Below are positions 20,343 through 53,400 of a stretch of 57,944 nucleotides of DNA, in pieces (the first letter of the stretch is position 1; each line of letters opens with the position of its first letter). Made by a program: the position numbers and the translations under genes. The DNA comes from Pseudomonadota bacterium (GTDB lineage Bacteria > Pseudomonadota > Gammaproteobacteria > Eutrophobiales > Eutrophobiaceae). A model generated the notes under the pieces. It worked only from the letters and a program-made list of their open reading frames with translations. It did no database searches and was not told the origin of the DNA. The stretch is taken from positions 1 to 57,944 of the forward strand of contig JACZSJ010000005.1 of the NCBI GenBank assembly GCA_022574295.1. The letters run 5' to 3'.

Positions 20343-20954
20343 TTATTCTACTCCAAGGCGCGTCACTCGCATCAACACGCCAAACAATGGATGATCAAAA
20401 TAATGCAATTCATTCAGTTTAATTCGTCGTGTTTCCTTCATTTGCGCATAGGTACCAGTCATAATAATATCTTCCATAACGACCTCTTCACTACCTTCTT
20501 CCGTAAACGATGTTACTGATTCTGTGTAAAGATCAATAAAGTAAGAGATATCCAGATCCAGATGAAGTAGATGCCCACCTCTTAAATTGACTGTGCCATT
20601 TATCCTGGCCTCGGGATTTTTGATATGAACTTTCTTTGCCCTTGATTTTCTCAATTCAGGCTGTTGCCAGGCGACATGATACACGGGTCGATATTCGCTG
20701 GATAATTTAAGCACTTTGTTCACACCGCCGAGTTTATGCCTGCTTGATGGCAGCATTTTAAATGCATTGGAACCATCAGGGCCTGTAACCAGTTCTATGG
20801 CATTGCTATAATCCGGCACATTACCCGCATTCCACAGTTCACCACTGCTATCTGGTATCAAATGTTCAAACACAATCATTTCTACCTGATACCATTTGGC
20901 AAAGACATGGCTACTAAATACTAAAATAAAACCAGCGAGTAATATTCTTATCAT
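20343..20954 (-). CDS. CsiV-like periplasmic protein
   Basis: A signal peptide (MIRILLAGFILVFSSHVFA) precedes KWYQVEMIVFEH, the start of the CsiV family described in Shewanella and relatives as a peptidoglycan-binding cell-shape factor. Other family features are WQQP near residue 95, LRGGHLLHLDLDISYF and RRIKLNELHYFDHPLFGVLMRV at the C-terminus. The length of 203 aa is somewhat short. The mfd-csiV order is typical. Its ATG lies two bases from the end of a long fold-back element, so its leader sequence is the element itself. Confidence 0.8.
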   Translation of the reverse strand: MIRILLAGFILVFSSHVFAKWYQVEMIVFEHLIPDSSGELWNAGNVPDYSNAIELVTGPDGSNAFKMLPSSRHKLGGVNKVLKLSSEYRPVYHVAWQQPELRKSRAKKVHIKNPEARINGTVNLRGGHLLHLDLDISYFIDLYTESVTSFTEEGSEEVVMEDIIMTGTYAQMKETRRIKLNELHYFDHPLFGVLMRVTRLGVE

Positions 20955-20956
20955 GT

Positions 20957-21117
20957 GGGCACCACTATTAATTCTGGATGAGCCAGATTGATATTCAAAA
21001 TCTTTAAGAGCAAGGCACTAGGTGCTTGTAATAGTAATTCTATTACGAGTGCTTGACAACGCAGCCATCGGAGATTTTTGACTCAAGGTGCTCGTGCACG
21101 AATTAATAATGGTTCCC
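20957..21117. repeat. 161-bp symmetric fold-back element (MITE-like)
   Basis: Terminal arms at 20957-20974 and 21100-21117 pair at 16 of 18 positions. A second perfect 7-bp pair (21028-21034 with 21040-21046) sits at the exact centre of symmetry, 21037, and the flanks between them pair imperfectly. The element nearly fills the mfd-csiV gap: it ends 4 bp from the mfd stop and 2 bp from the csiV ATG. No ORF lies inside. It looks like a non-autonomous mobile or palindromic repeat; family membership is unverified. Confidence 0.65.
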
Positions 21118-21121
21118 ATAA

Positions 21122-24100
21122 TTATGCGGCATCCTTGTTTGTAATATCTGTCAAGAGCTTGGCCAGTATTGTGAACCTGTCAGCAGGTTCCGGCAATTCC
21201 TCATCAATTCTTAATTTGTCCTGACCTTCCAGTCTATAGGTAAACGGATTGTTTTGTATCAATGCCATTATCTTAATGGGATCAACATTATTTTTCTCAT
21301 TAAACTGTAACCGTCCGCCATGAAGTCCCAAATCTATTTTGCGCACACCGAGAGGATTGGCCAATAATTTTAATGTTGCAATCTGAAAAATATTTTTGGC
21401 AAAATCAGGCAATAAACCAAAACGATCAATCATTTCTATTTGCAGTTCCTTTAACTCTTCTTCATTCTTTACACTGGCAATTCGCTTATACATGATGAGT
21501 CGCATGTGTACGTCTGGCAAATAATCCTCAGGGATCAGTGTTGGAATGTGCAGGTCGATCTCCACACCATGATCCAGGGGCCGATCAAGCTCAGGCTGTT
21601 GACCGGATTTAAGCGCGGTCACGGCACGATCCAGCAGATCCATATAAAGGCCATAACCTATTTCCTGAATTTGTCCACTTTGTCCTTCGCCCAATATTTC
21701 CCCTGCCCCGCGGATCTCCAGATCATGAGTTGCCAGGGTAAAACCAACTCCTAATTCTTCCAGAGCTTCAATGGCCTCCAGTCTTTTCACTGCATCCGCC
21801 GTCATCTGTCTCTTTTCAGGGACAATAAGATAGGCATAGGCCTGATGATGCGAACGTCCGACACGGCCTCTCAACTGATAGAGTTGTGCCAATCCAAATT
21901 TATCAGCACGATTGATAATTATAGTATTGGCGCTCGGCACATCGATTCCTGTTTCAATGATGGTCGTGCAAACCAGTACATTAAAACGCCGATGATAAAA
22001 ATCCTGCATGACCTGCTCAAGTACTTTTTCCGGCATCTGGCCATGTGCTGTTCTGACACTTGCCTCTGGCAGAAGCAATTCCACCTGCTTCGCCATTTTT
22101 TCTATGGTTTCAACTTTATTATGTAACACGTAAACCTGACCACCACGTTTGATTTCACGCAGTAGTGCCTCTTTCAAAAGTGTATCATTCCATTCGCGTA
22201 CAAAGGTTTTTACTGCCAATCGCTTTGCTGGGGGTGTCGCGATGATTGAAAACTCGCGCAGGTCAGACAATGCCATATTCAGCGTGCGTGGGATTGGGGT
22301 TGCCGTGAGTGTCAGGACATCAATTTCTGCACGAATTGCCTTAAACTTTTCCTTTTGTCTCACACCGAAACGGTGTTCTTCATCGATGATTAATAAACCC
22401 AATCGGGCAAATTGTATATTCCCCTGGATTAATTTGTGTGTGCCAATAACGATATCGACCGTACCATCTTCAATTCCTTTAATGGCCTTTCCCTGTTGCT
22501 TGCCTGTGCGGAATCTTGATAATAATTCAACACGCACAGGCCAGTCGGCAAACCTGTCTATAAAATTTTGATAATGTTGCTGTGCCAATAATGTTGTGGG
22601 CACAAGGATGGCGACCTGTTTGCTATTCTGTACTGCGATAAACGAGGCACGCATGGCCACTTCTGTTTTACCAAAACCTGAATCACCACATATCAGACGA
22701 TCCATGGGTTTCCCCTGGGTCATATCATCAATGACTGCCGAGATAGCATCCATTTGGCCCGGTGTTTCTTCAAAGGGAAATGCTTGCACAAAAGCATGAT
22801 AGGCATCTTCATCAAGTTCAAATTTAAAACCAGAACGTGCTGCACGTTGCGCATGCATTTCCAGTAGTTCAGCAGCAACATCATATACGCGTTTGGCGGC
22901 CTTACGTCTTGCCTTCTCCCACTGGCCGCTACCCAAACGATGTAATGGCGCATGCTCTGGATCTATTCCAGTGAAACGACTGATCAGATCAAGTGCAGAA
23001 ACAGGCACATAAAGTTTGTCGCTCTCGGCATATTCTATGAAAATAAACTCTGCAGGGATGTCTCCTACCTGCAGAGTGATTAAACCCTGATACCGACCAA
23101 CACCATGTTCCTCATGCACTACTGCTGCACCCAGGGTTAACTCCGTCAGATTACGGATGATGTTTTCTGAATCCTGCTGCTTGCGTTTACGCAATCGACG
23201 TTGCATCACGCGTTCACCAAATAATTGCCCTTCACTGACAATGGCAATCCTGGGGTTATTCAATTGTGCCCCTTGCTCCAGAGGAGCAACGGTCAGTCCC
23301 AGACGCTCTTTACCATGTAAAAATTCGGACCAATCGGCATATTGCACAGGTTTAATCTGATGTTGCTGGAACAGATCTAGTAAGGTTTCTCTTCTGCCCG
23401 CCGATTCTGCGACCAATAAGATTCTGCCGTCAAAGCCATTGACGAAGCGTTTGAATAACGATAATGAATCTACCGAACGAGCATCAATTGTCAGACTTGC
23501 TGGCAGGGTTGTATCATAATTACTGGTTCCAGCACGCTCATCCTGCTGCATATGTGATATGTGGATCTGGTGGTAGTTTTTTGTTCTGCTTAACAAGTCA
23601 TGGGGATTGAGAAACATCTCTCGAGGCGGCAATACTGGACGTTCCAGATCATGTCTTGTTTGCTCATAACGTGTTTCGATGTCCTGCCAAAATGTTTCTG
23701 CAACATCAATGACATCTTCATCAAAGATAGTGATGCAGTTATCCGGCAAATAATCAAATAAGGTATTGGTCTCTTTGTAAAACAATGGTAAATAATACTC
23801 AATTCCTGCTGGAGCAAACCCCTGGCTAACATCACGATAGACGGGACATTGGTTAGGGTTCCCTTCAAATCGTGATCGCCAATTTGATCTGAAGCGAGCA
23901 ATTCCTTCATCAATCAAGGGGACTTCCCTTGCCGGTAGTATTCTAATTTCCTCTACCTTATCCAGTGAACGCTGGGTTTCAGGATCGAAGGTTCTGATAC
24001 TGTCTATTTCGTCATCGAACAAATCTATCCGATAGGGTTGCGTTGTCCCCATGGGGTACAAATCAATCAATGAACCGCGAACTGCGACATCGCCATGCTC

Positions 24101-24595
24101 AATGACCTGTGTGACAAACGTATATCCACCTTCATTCAGTTGTTTTCTGAATGCATCAACATTGAGTTGCTGTCCTTTTTTCAGAATCAGGCTATGTGAC
24201 AACAGGAATTCTTTAGGCATCAAACGATGCATTAGTGTGGTGACAGGAACAATCAGAATACCTTCCTTCAAGCTCGGCAGGATGGTCAGAGTCGCCAGCC
24301 TTTCTGAAATAATATCCTGATAGGGTGAAAACATATCGTAAGGCAATGTTTCCCAGTCAGGAAAAGACAGAAGACTGAAAGTTTTATTCTCACCTAGATA
24401 AAAACGAAGCTCTTCTGTCAGTCTGCTTGCCACAAGTGAGCTTGCCGTCATAATAACGATGGGAGCTTTTTCTTTTTGAACTAATCGGCTGATAGCCAGG
24501 GCTTTGCTACTACCGTAAAGCCTGCCCCAGAAACTTTTTTCGCCCGCCCTGAATGAACATTCTGGCTGGAATGCACTTGCGCGATTATTAGTCAT
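21122..24595 (-). CDS. mfd: Transcription-repair coupling factor Mfd
   Basis: Mfd displaces RNA polymerase stalled at DNA lesions and recruits UvrA. The domains run in order: UvrB-like module (LLSFPDWETLPYDMFSP), the RNA polymerase-interacting domain (GAAVVHEEHGVGRYQGL with EYAESDKLYVPV), a RecG-like motor with Walker A GDSGFGKTEVAMRA (roughly residue 640) and DEEH box IDEEHRFGVRQKEKFK, the RGRVGRS motif and a C-terminal D7 region. The frame opens at 24661 inside pyrF; ATG 24595 (MTNNRASAF) avoids that overlap and gives 1157 aa, close to E. coli Mfd. Confidence 0.95.
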   Translation of the reverse strand: MTNNRASAFQPECSFRAGEKSFWGRLYGSSKALAISRLVQKEKAPIVIMTASSLVASRLTEELRFYLGENKTFSLLSFPDWETLPYDMFSPYQDIISERLATLTILPSLKEGILIVPVTTLMHRLMPKEFLLSHSLILKKGQQLNVDAFRKQLNEGGYTFVTQVIEHGDVAVRGSLIDLYPMGTTQPYRIDLFDDEIDSIRTFDPETQRSLDKVEEIRILPAREVPLIDEGIARFRSNWRSRFEGNPNQCPVYRDVSQGFAPAGIEYYLPLFYKETNTLFDYLPDNCITIFDEDVIDVAETFWQDIETRYEQTRHDLERPVLPPREMFLNPHDLLSRTKNYHQIHISHMQQDERAGTSNYDTTLPASLTIDARSVDSLSLFKRFVNGFDGRILLVAESAGRRETLLDLFQQHQIKPVQYADWSEFLHGKERLGLTVAPLEQGAQLNNPRIAIVSEGQLFGERVMQRRLRKRKQQDSENIIRNLTELTLGAAVVHEEHGVGRYQGLITLQVGDIPAEFIFIEYAESDKLYVPVSALDLISRFTGIDPEHAPLHRLGSGQWEKARRKAAKRVYDVAAELLEMHAQRAARSGFKFELDEDAYHAFVQAFPFEETPGQMDAISAVIDDMTQGKPMDRLICGDSGFGKTEVAMRASFIAVQNSKQVAILVPTTLLAQQHYQNFIDRFADWPVRVELLSRFRTGKQQGKAIKGIEDGTVDIVIGTHKLIQGNIQFARLGLLIIDEEHRFGVRQKEKFKAIRAEIDVLTLTATPIPRTLNMALSDLREFSIIATPPAKRLAVKTFVREWNDTLLKEALLREIKRGGQVYVLHNKVETIEKMAKQVELLLPEASVRTAHGQMPEKVLEQVMQDFYHRRFNVLVCTTIIETGIDVPSANTIIINRADKFGLAQLYQLRGRVGRSHHQAYAYLIVPEKRQMTADAVKRLEAIEALEELGVGFTLATHDLEIRGAGEILGEGQSGQIQEIGYGLYMDLLDRAVTALKSGQQPELDRPLDHGVEIDLHIPTLIPEDYLPDVHMRLIMYKRIASVKNEEELKELQIEMIDRFGLLPDFAKNIFQIATLKLLANPLGVRKIDLGLHGGRLQFNEKNNVDPIKIMALIQNNPFTYRLEGQDKLRIDEELPEPADRFTILAKLLTDITNKDAA

Positions 24596-24623
24596 CGATT
24601 TAAAGCAATCAGACACCAAAATG

Positions 24624-25334
24624 CTACACGGCCATACTTGCAGCGCAGATTTCTTCCTCAATATTCTTTAGCACCTGTACTGGATCTACTGCTTGTGTGA
24701 TTGGTCTTCCTATCACCAGATAATCGCTCCCTGCATTGATGGCTTGACCAGGTGTCATGACACGTTCTTGATCATTATTATCGGAACCAGCCGGGCGAAT
24801 ACCGGGAGTGACTAACTTGAACTCTTTGCCTAGATTGTCTCGTAACATCTTTACTTCCTGCGCAGAACATACCACGCCATCAAGACCAGCATCAGATGCT
24901 AACTGCGCCAGTCTCATCACCTGTTCTTCAACAGAACATTGATAACCCAGTTCTCTTAATGCTTCTTCATTCATACTGGTAAGTATGGTTACACCAATCA
25001 ACAGTGGATGATGTGATTTTTTCTCGATTTCCTCTCTGGCGAGCGACATCATTTCGGATCCACCACTTGCATGCACATTGACCATCCACACACCTAAATC
25101 TGCGGCGACTGCGCACGCCTTTGCTACGGTGGTGGGGATATCGTGATATTTCAAATCAAGAAATACATCAAAACCTTTGCTGATCAATTTCTCGACCATG
25201 ACTGGCCCTGCTTTCGTGAATAGCTCTTTACCTACTTTCACTCGGCATAAAGCAGGCTGCAGTTTTTCAACCAGCTCCAGAGCCAGTTTCGGTTCAGAAT
25301 AATCCAGAGGAACAATAATACGTGAGTGATCCAC
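24624..25334 (-). CDS. pyrF: Orotidine 5'-phosphate decarboxylase PyrF
   Basis: PyrF decarboxylates OMP to UMP, the last de novo pyrimidine step. The catalytic tetrad region FLDLKYHDIPTTV gives D60, K62 and D65; VNVHASGGSEM and TPGIRPAG follow, with VIGRPITQA at the phosphate-binding end. The length of 236 aa is normal. It starts 3 bp after lapB ends, as in many gammaproteobacteria where pyrF follows lapAB, and is followed by mfd. Confidence 0.95.
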   Translation of the reverse strand: MDHSRIIVPLDYSEPKLALELVEKLQPALCRVKVGKELFTKAGPVMVEKLISKGFDVFLDLKYHDIPTTVAKACAVAADLGVWMVNVHASGGSEMMSLAREEIEKKSHHPLLIGVTILTSMNEEALRELGYQCSVEEQVMRLAQLASDAGLDGVVCSAQEVKMLRDNLGKEFKLVTPGIRPAGSDNNDQERVMTPGQAINAGSDYLVIGRPITQAVDPVQVLKNIEEEICAASMAV

Positions 25335-50350: not shown

Positions 50351-50486
50351 TAGGGAACCTCTGATTAAGTTGTCATTTCGACCAACGGGAGAAATCTTAA
50401 GTTGAAAATATTAAGTAAAATCAGTTGGCTACAAGATTTCTCGCTGCGCTCGAAATGACAGGCTGGACTTAATCAGAGGTTCCTTA
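50351..50486. mobile_element. 136-bp MITE-like inverted-repeat element before purL
   Basis: Terminal arms at 50351-50370 and 50467-50486 match at 19 of 20 positions (containing GGAACCTCTGATTAAGT). Inside, TGTCATTTCGA (50371-50381) pairs with TCGAAATGACA (50450-50460), and GAGAAATCTT pairs with AAGATTTCTC. TA dinucleotides at both ends may be a target duplication. No ORF is inside. This is the structure of a non-autonomous transposon derivative. It ends one base before the purL ATG. Confidence 0.75.
50475..50479 (+). promoter_or_regulatory. purL ribosome-binding site inside the element's terminal repeat
   Basis: AGAGG within the right terminal arm lies 8 nt before the purL ATG at 50488, an ideal Shine-Dalgarno spacing. 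No other candidate exists because the element occupies everything upstream. The start itself is fixed by the conserved PurL N-terminus. Confidence 0.6.
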
Positions 50487-50487
50487 G

Positions 50488-53400
50488 ATGCATATTCTTC
50501 GCGGCAAAACCGCACTTTCCGAGTTTAGGCTGAATAAATTACTTCTGGCCCTAAAACAGAAAGTACCTGACATCCAGACTCTGGAATGTCAGTTTATTCA
50601 TTTTGTTCATTCTCGTACTCAGCTTGATAGTCATGAAATTAATCAGATGAATACTATCCTGGTAACATCTGAGCAAGAGAACACAGCTCATAATAACAAA
50701 AAAAACAATCGTTCATTTATCCTGGTGACACCGAGACCCGGAACAATTTCACCCTGGTCAAGTAAGGCAACCGACATAGTTCACAACTGTGGTCTGGACA
50801 ATATCTTACGTATTGAACGAGGTGTCGGCTGGACGCTTTCAGGAAGTAATGGTTACGTGATCAATAGAACAGACCTCAAACAGATTAAACCATTGCTTCA
50901 CGATCGCATGACCGAAATAGTCATGGATGACATCAGGCAAGCGGAGATCCTGTTTCAAACATCAGATGCCGAGCCACTGGAAATAATTGAACTATTGACA
51001 CAGGGTAGGACCAGTCTGGAACAGGCCAATATCGAAATGGGCCTGGCACTTTCGGAGATGGAGATTGACTACTTGCTTGAACATTTTATCAAGATGGGTC
51101 GCAACCCCACTGATGTTGAATTAATGATGTTTGCCCAGGCCAATTCCGAACACTGTCGCCACAAAATATTTAACGCCAAATGGACAATTGATGGAGAGAA
51201 AAAAAACCACTCGCTCTTCGATATGATTCGGCAAACACATCAGAAAAATCCTGGCAAGGTGTTATCTGCATACAGTGATAATTCTGCCGTCACTACGGGT
51301 TACTCAGCATCCAGGTTTTTTCCTCAACCGGCAACACATCAGTATCAATTTAGTCAGGAGGACGTTCATATCTTGATGAAGGTAGAAACCCATAACCATC
51401 CCACTGCCATCTCACCTTACGCAGGGGCATCGACAGGCTCTGGTGGTGAAATCAGGGACGAAACTGCCACTGGTCGGGGTGCAAAGCCCAAAGCGGGTTT
51501 GACTGGGTTTTCCGTATCAAATCTTAAAATCCCTGATTTCCATCAACCATGGGAAGTCGATCATGGCAAACCTGATCGAATAGTTTCTGCGCTGGATATT
51601 ATGCTGGAAGGCCCCATCGGTGCGGCATCTTTCAATAATGAATTTGGCCGACCAGCTCTGGCCGGCTATTTCCGCAGCTATGAACAAAAAGAAAAAGAGG
51701 GTCATATCATTCGTGGCTACCATAAACCTATTATGCTTGCGGGTGGTTACGGCATGATACGGCATGTTCATATTGAAAAAGGCAACATCCCTGTCGGTGC
51801 AAAACTCATTGTCCTTGGCGGTCCGGCCATGCTTATCGGACTGGGGGGCGGTGCCGCATCGTCCATGGCCTCAGGTGAGAGTGTAGAAGATCTTGATTTC
51901 GCTTCTGTACAGAGAGACAACCCGGAGATGGAACGTCGCTGCCAGGAGGTAATTGACGCCTGCTGGGCTATGAAAGAGTCAAACCCCATTATATCAATAC
52001 ACGATGTCGGTGCCGGTGGTTTGTCCAATGCACTCCCGGAACTGGTCAATGACAGTGACCGAGGTGCAACATTTGAATTACGCAAGATCCCAAATGATGA
52101 ACCTGGTATGTCACCCATGGCTGTCTGGTGCAATGAATCTCAGGAGCGTTATGTACTTGCCATTGCCCCTGATGCCATCGCACTCTTCAAGCGTCTTTGT
52201 GAACGTGAACGGGCACCTTTCGCCATCCTTGGCGAGGCGACCAAGGAAGAACAACTCATTCTGAATGACGAATTGTTTCACAACAGGGCAGTCGATTTAC
52301 CCTTATCCGTATTGTTTGGCAAGTTGCCGCGTACGCAAAAAGAAGCCCATACAAATGAGCATATCGATACCGAATTCAAAACCGATGACATAGTACTGGA
52401 GGATGCAATACATCGCATATTGCATTTACCTGCCGTTGCAGATAAACATTTTCTCATTACCATTGGTGATCGTACTATCTCCGGTCTGGTCGCTCGAGAT
52501 CAAATGGTTGGTCCCTGGCAAACACCCGTTGCAGATTGCGCTGTTACATCCAGCTCATTTGATGCCTATACGGGAGAAGCAATGGCCATTGGTGAACGTG
52601 CGCCAATTGCATTAATCAATGCCCCTGCTTCTGGACGAATGGCCGTTGGCGAGGCGCTGACAAATATCGCAGCTGCAAGAATTCTCGATATAGAAGATAT
52701 CGTTTTTTCCGCCAACTGGATGGCAGCTTGCGGACAAGGCGATGAAGATGCAAAACTCTTCCACACGGTTCAGACAGTTAGCGAGCTCTGCCAGGAGCTT
52801 GGAATATGTATTCCAGTAGGCAAAGATTCTTTATCAATGAACACGGTATGGTCAGATCAAGATTCCGACACGCATTCACAGACACAGGTCACCTCGCCAC
52901 TTTCATTAATAATCACAGCATTTTCGCCTGTCGTTGATGTTCGCCATTCACTCACGCCAGAACTTAAAACGGACAAAGGTGAGACACGACTGTTACTCAT
53001 CGATCTAGGTCTCGGTAAAAATCGTTTAGGCAGTTCTTGTTTGACTCAGGTCTATCAGGAAATCTCAGGGGAAACCCCCGATGTTGAAAGTATTCATGAC
53101 CTTAAAGTGTTTTTCAGATCGATTCAGTTGTTGAATGAAATGAGCATCATCCTGGCATATCATGATCGCTCTGATGGCGGATTGTTTGCCAGTCTGTGTG
53201 AGATGGCATTTGCATCGCGGTCAGGGTTAGATCTCAATCTGGATTTCGCAGGCAATAACATATTATCCGTACTATTCAATGAAGAGTTAGGTGCCGTCAT
53301 ACAAGTACGAACGGAAAATCTGGAGCAAGTTTATGATGTATTTAATGATTCAGAGTTCCTGAAAGAACATATTCATGATATTGGCACGCTCAATCAGGAT

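Follow-up and report, generated by a model that had tools for sequence, protein, structure and literature searches.

A dispersed palindromic MITE at the mfd–csiV junction of a gammaproteobacterium and its probable IS5-family mobiliser

Between mfd and csiV, two co-directional genes of a bacterium of the gammaproteobacterial family Eutrophobiaceae, a 161-base palindrome fills nearly the whole junction. Its position raises two linked questions, namely whether it arrived as a mobile repeat or evolved in place as an RNA structure of this locus, and what it might do to the gene downstream. The window, that is, the whole stretch of DNA analysed, comprises 57,944 nucleotides of contig JACZSJ010000005.1 (assembly GCA_022574295.1).

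The palindrome and its two genes

Both genes are encoded on the minus strand; in mRNA sense mfd therefore comes first, followed by the element and then csiV (Table 1). An earlier note on this DNA had described a palindrome at 20957–21117 centred on 21037, and the palindrome is real, both pairs of arms sharing that centre. The 18-bp outer arms are present where it placed them, but its wording hid their imperfection, as only 16 of 18 positions are paired (17 of 19 with a one-base extension); the inner arms (21025–21034 and 21040–21049) pair at 9 of 10. The spacing it gave, with 4 nt separating the element from the mfd stop and 2 nt separating it from the csiV ATG, is recovered from the ORF coordinates. 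The interval 20957–21117 holds no ORF of at least 80 aa, the 401 bases around the element yield no Rfam match at E ≤ 1, and a terminator scan found no terminator on the mRNA strand of the element, the terminator-like site at 20973–20987 belonging to the opposite (non-mRNA) strand. RNA folding of the element gives −58.9 kcal/mol on the plus strand (z −5.7) and −49.6 kcal/mol on the mRNA (minus) strand (z −4.5), with 0 of 200 shuffles as low in either case; folded together with its flanks, it reaches z −2.7 (1 of 200 shuffles as low).

Table 1. Coordinates of the mfd–csiV junction and its element in the window
Feature	Position	Strand	Basis
MITE copy, 161 bp imperfect palindrome, in mfd to csiV orientation	20957..21117	-	
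3' terminal inverted repeat in mRNA sense, GAATTAATAGTGGTGCCC	20957..20974	-	
5' terminal inverted repeat in mRNA sense, GGGAACCATTATTAATTC	21100..21117	-	
Presumed left target duplication TTAT, abutting the mfd stop TAA	21118..21121	-	by analogy with the 4-bp duplications flanking copies elsewhere
Presumed decayed right target duplication ACAT, matching TTAT at 2/4 and giving the AT of the csiV ATG	20953..20956	-	inference
Apical hairpin, 10-nt arms, 9/10 paired; site of the ~51-nt insert in relatives	21025..21049	-	
GTGGTG in the terminal stem, decayed form of the family's outward Shine-Dalgarno-like GAGGTG	20960..20965	-	
csiV, downstream gene	20343..20954	-	ORF and Pfam PF10972 (CsiV)
mfd, upstream gene	21122..24661	-	ORF and Pfam TRCF/Mfd domains

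Copies, target sites and a probable IS5-family mobiliser

The palindrome is a copy of a dispersed non-autonomous MITE that is widespread in Gammaproteobacteria. With the window copy as query, the host genome (G000; 2.2 Mb, 175 contigs) yielded three further copies; a second query (L003) added a copy on contig C142 and a fragment on C49, and the C142 copy in turn added a fragment on C90, giving five full-length copies of 158–163 bp in total, plus fragments. At E ≤ 1e-4, and with the own genome counted, matches occur in 6 of 53 genomes of the window's family and in 10 of 369 genomes of the class sample. In another family, 7 of 8 genomes match (one genus), the four richest carrying 51, 46, 41 and 31 matches, with G110 at the head of them (51). 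Plasmid collections searched with two family members, and phage collections searched with one, returned no match.

The junction itself is found both filled and empty. The sister genome G002 has the orthologous insertion between mfd and csiV (L026; 155 of 161 positions identical), whereas in G001 (QNEM01000010.1, isolate B40_G6) the junction is empty, with 5 nt between the mfd TAA and the csiV ATG. Among ten related csiV loci, eight have the 3' end of mfd close upstream, none of these eight contains the element, and in the other two (L042 and L044) mfd was not seen upstream of csiV. The element is therefore present at this junction in G000 and G002 and absent from G001 and seven further related mfd–csiV loci. 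The insertion would have taken place at TTAT in the short junction, in an ancestor common to the window's species and G002 but not to G001. The mfd stop would have been preserved by the left duplication, and the csiV ATG provided by the right.

Target-site duplication is evident at the level of the family. From 97 deduplicated candidates, a filter on terminal inverted repeats (TIRs) and length retained 55. Exact 4-bp duplications flank 30 of the 47 well-delimited copies outside the window's family, against 0 or 1 in each of 11 shifted controls, and duplications of 3 or 5 bp number zero among the same copies. The duplicated sequences are TTAA (14), TTTA (4), TATA (3), TAAA (2), TGAA (2) and five others found once each. 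YTAR is the 4-bp target of the IS5 subgroup; the length of 4 and TTAA fit it, while TTTA, TATA and TGAA do not. An exact 4-bp duplication is seen at just 1 of the 8 well-delimited copies from the window's own family, and the presumed duplication of the window copy is taken as decayed because its flanks read TTAT and ACAT.

The terminal repeats of the MITE family are about 18 bp long (consensus GGGCACCTCTATTAATTC), and the same type of end is carried by IS5-family transposons. A search of 19 genomes with the NF033581 profile led to an IS (L203) in G110, the copy-richest genome, which is 1254 bp long, has the ends GGGCACCTCTATTTAG and GGGCATCTCTATTTAG and is flanked by the duplication ATAA/ATAA; its transposase scores 243 bits against NF033581, above the curated IS5 cut-off of 140, and contains PF01609 and PF05598. 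Two contigs of G350 start with a relative of this IS that ends in GGGCATCTCTATTAATTC, identical to the MITE end in 17 of its 18 positions, and continue with TTAA. Extending the search for L203-type transposases to the 53 family and 369 class genomes gave 28 loci. At 11 of them, one being the L203 IS again, flanking inverted repeats match the MITE end at no fewer than 12 of 16 positions, and 6 of these 11, including L224 in G074 from the window's own family, also have an exact 4-bp duplication; at the other 17 the scan found no flanking repeat pair matching the MITE end. G000 holds no matching IS5 transposase at E ≤ 1e-10, and its NF033581 matches are without MITE-type ends. Beyond the terminal 16–18 bp or so, the L203-type IS and the MITE are unlike, so deletion within the IS found would not by itself yield the MITE. 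Since the terminal repeat recurs on IS5-family transposons, along with a duplication of 4 bp, the probable mobiliser is thereby identified: as judged from sequence, the element was very probably moved by IS5-family transposases, one of which, acting in trans, would have inserted it here.

Not every IS5 copy fits, as L202 (G253) has other ends. Three more IS5 elements (L201 in G350, L218 in G010 and L219 in G011) bear the variant end GGAACCTCTGATTAA. Twenty half-matching stretches that had been considered as candidate autonomous elements turned out to be MITEs, many with an apical insert of about 50 nt. G074 (L217, L221–L231), a genome of the window's family, contains 54 IS5-family transposase matches, many of them interrupted or partial.

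These results bear out the earlier note's reading of a non-autonomous element, given the multiple copies in the host, the relatives elsewhere, the empty orthologous site and the target duplications of the family. A single copy at the same locus in all relatives, which that note had named as the contrary case, was looked for and did not occur. The mobiliser, the target duplication and the family are additions to what it had proposed. It had also seen here a second element family lying, again, next to a start codon. The window indeed contains another MITE, at 50354–50483 (130 bp), whose ends (GGAACCTCTGATTAAGT) are related to those of the mfd–csiV element; it has an exact TTAG/TTAG duplication and ends 4 nt before the ATG at 50488 of a 1302-aa ORF, presumably purL. 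This MITE, probably the first family of that note, has ends matching those of the IS5-family IS L218 and L219 (G010, G011), from the same bacterial family.

Further variation was observed in the interior of the copies. Many copies from two bacterial families (L027:1381-1593, L181–L188, L135) carry at their apex a module of about 51 nt (CATGGATGTGCAAGTGCCGCGACGACAGGATGTCGTTGAGCGG-like), which is absent from L006, the orthologue of the L027 copy. The module presents GGA in small putative hairpin loops, as do CsrA/RsmA sites. A different insert of about 40 nt (TGGTGCCAAGCATGAGAGCATTA..TATTGTGCATGGTGC) occupies the right arm in L019, L024, L029, L030 and L009, with a tandem pair in L029. L087 (G000:C69) and L093 (G183:C196) are MITEs in which the same terminal repeats enclose unrelated interiors; ends of this kind are thus common to several MITE families. 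Derivatives of 30–53 bp that hardly extend beyond the two terminal repeats (L130, L131, L133, L137, L148–L151), several with 4-bp duplications, are internal deletions or minimal mobile forms. In L006:1501-1700, at an hpnJ–hpnK-like junction, the element, judged by eye, seems to interrupt what was the original start codon, and the downstream frame runs on into it, so the MITE may supply the start there.

Possible constraint, gene-boundary position and competing explanations

Covariation was assessed in an alignment of 27 copies chosen without inserts. In a three-helix structure 92.5% of cells are paired, and double-change cells number 57 against 14.5 in shuffles (0/500), with slid controls at 5–11. 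The two ends of one element differ by 1.55 mismatches of 18, compared with 2.58 between elements (0/2000 permutations). The large RNA hairpin suggested in the earlier note is accordingly one that folding predicts and whose stem pairs covary. Agreement of the ends and covariation may stem from selection on structure, or else from template-switch repair of palindromes, and an RNA role is not thereby proven.

Resident orthologous copies diverge slowly. The element differs at 6 of 161 positions between G000 and G002 at mfd–csiV (mfd pS 0.286), at 4 of 162, a 51-nt indel not counted, at the hpnJ–hpnK-like junction (pS 0.32), at 12 of 161 (149 of 161 the same) apart from insert and indels beside ftsY in G000 and G001 (pS 0.58), and, at a junction between aroC and an MFS gene, at 15 of 159 in G030/G073 (pS 0.67–0.74) and 8 of 159 in G073/G068 (pS 0.31); the gene names at the hpnJ–hpnK-like and aroC–MFS junctions are presumed. 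This comparison is biased towards slow copies, because orthologues were found by family similarity and fast-decaying copies were perhaps missed. The ftsY element (149/161, 93%) is only moderately better conserved than the neighbouring intergenic DNA, where 54 of 64 and 59 of 75 positions are identical without gaps (79–84%). A flank search of two of the six loci (L003 and L005) gave no match in G002 and one flank in G001, with a different upstream neighbourhood. Resident copies may thus be constrained, diverging far below synonymous sites and somewhat below nearby intergenic DNA.

The position of the copies relative to genes was examined for 57 elements (55 filtered, plus L056 and L007 by hand; 114 end-orientations) under a crude ORF definition, the set including two orthologous duplicate pairs, L001/L026 and L006/L027. 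An ORF stop codon lies −3 to +7 nt upstream in 24 of 114 cases versus 148 of 5873 control sites (Fisher p 6e-15), and an ORF ATG lies within 10 nt downstream in 14 of 114 versus 184 of 5873 (Fisher p 2e-5). The aroC–MFS copy L056 repeats the 4-nt and 2-nt spacing of the window. The outward-reading end ...AGAGGTGCCC is Shine-Dalgarno-like and held in the terminal stem; the duplex with the anti-Shine-Dalgarno string amounts to −7.1 kcal/mol for the consensus outward end AGAGGUGCCC, −2.8 for GUGGUG of the window copy and −5.2 for the native csiV leader in G001.

The enrichment of stop and ATG codons, together with the Shine-Dalgarno-like end, makes control or coupling of downstream translation the preferred candidate function. 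In the mfd–csiV transcript, a long hairpin would extend from 4 nt past the mfd stop to 2 nt before the csiV ATG. The duplex energies suggest that the native ribosome-binding site of csiV was displaced and that the end of the element takes its place within the terminal stem. A ribosome finishing mfd would then open the base of the stem, so that csiV translation would be both reduced and dependent on that ribosome. Of two models of translational coupling reviewed in PMC12548453, one has the upstream ribosome unfold the RNA. Such lowered, mfd-dependent translation of csiV is the most likely effect, yet it is put forward tentatively, and the role is weakest in the window copy, where the Shine-Dalgarno-like motif is weak (−2.8 versus −7.1 kcal/mol). 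As a whole, the explanation that an IS5-type MITE inserted at mfd–csiV and would now form a hairpin in the transcript before csiV is considered highly likely.

Other origins fare poorly. A locus-specific RNA that evolved in place, such as a riboswitch, an attenuator or an intercistronic terminator, would account for the strong folding, the covarying pairs and the slow divergence from the G002 orthologue, but not for a multi-copy repeat dispersed beside unrelated genes or for the empty site in G001 and elsewhere, and the lack of an Rfam family (E ≤ 1) and of an mRNA-strand terminator in the element (terminator scan) also speaks against it. As an origin it is refuted by the copies elsewhere and the empty site, and it is very improbable overall, although later use is possible. 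Even less probable is mobilisation by a RAYT (TnpA_REP) transposase, as in REP/BIME-type repeats. REP/BIME systems combine a palindrome of 20–40 bp, a tetranucleotide tag and a RAYT gene; the present element resembles them in being a short palindromic intergenic repeat with end-only derivatives of 30–53 bp, but its length, its long TIRs, the duplicated 4-bp target and the occurrence of its ends on IS5-family transposons argue against this reading. The long TIRs, the duplication and the IS5 ends therefore point to DDE transposition.

The effect of the insertion is more evenly contested. By analogy, RNase III or RNase E could cut the hairpin and set the mRNA stabilities of mfd and csiV, a close rival of translational coupling that is nonetheless rather unlikely: a long stem with little interruption between co-directional genes, the slow divergence of resident copies and the NEMIS and ERIC precedents in PMC2229807 would suit it, but internal loops break the stem of the window copy. 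Somewhat unlikely, too, is a MITE that no longer does anything, fixed long ago and tolerated since both the stop and the start codon survived through its duplication. The position bias may simply reflect which insertions survived, and the Shine-Dalgarno-like motif has decayed in the window copy; against this stand the 6 of 161 differences set beside an mfd pS of 0.286, a figure from copies found by similarity and hence favouring slow evolution, and the lower divergence of the element than of neighbouring intergenic DNA at ftsY. The weight left over is divided between a role at the DNA level and no function.

A broader form of the preferred translational-coupling reading, rather doubtful at present, holds that this IS5-type MITE family survives at gene boundaries and that its insertion is a selected, portable translational-coupling switch across genera. 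The W-rich target (often TTAA, which contains a stop codon) and the 4-bp duplication would preserve stop and start codons, and the end ...AGAGGUGCCC would supply a Shine-Dalgarno sequence locked in the stem until a ribosome from the upstream gene opens it; a stem-locked Shine-Dalgarno at a tight junction would thus turn an insertion into a coupling switch. Natural paired sites exist in the filled and empty mfd–csiV junctions, in the stop–element–ATG arrangements at csiV and aroC–MFS and in the element–ATG arrangement at purL, and such paired junctions are suited to asking whether a transposon end can become a ribosome-binding site coupling two genes. If the constraint is true, these are exapted MITEs and not debris.

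Comparison with known systems

A class-wide palindromic repeat is here tied to a specific transposase group, a link that, according to a 2007 review (PMC2229807), is missing for most bacterial MITEs. In open-access papers, no literature on this element was found, nor any paper for the forward terminal-repeat strings; the reverse-complement string GAATTAATAGAGGT occurs in one yeast cloning paper.

QMITEs of Coxiella burnetii are likewise gammaproteobacterial MITEs with shorter, REP-like derivatives, but according to PMC5896051 they measure about 190–400 bp, with direct repeats of 7–9 bp for QMITE2, and no sequence link to them was seen. PMC2229807 describes several further parallels. ERIC/IRU and YPAL of enterobacteria are palindromes co-transcribed in operons, ERIC being reported to affect the stability of upstream mRNA; they have different ends and a different duplication, and the element has no Rfam match. 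The Correia/NEMIS repeats of Neisseria are palindromic MITEs of about 105–155 bp in transcribed intergenic DNA and fall into two size classes set apart by an internal segment of about 50 bp, much as 158–162 and about 210 bp are found here; NEMIS, however, carry a TA motif at the termini, unlike the 4-bp W-rich duplications and IS5-type ends of the present family. RUP of Streptococcus pneumoniae offers a MITE linked to an IS (IS630-Spn1) by terminal repeats and target, although that link involves IS630 and a TA target instead of IS5-type ends and a 4-bp target. A further likeness is to IS5-family IS of the NCBIfam NF033581 group in G110, G279 (L235), G074 and others: the window element, at 161 bp, has no transposase and an interior unrelated to the IS found, but it has in common with them the terminal repeat GGGCAYCTCTATT.A and the 4-bp duplication.
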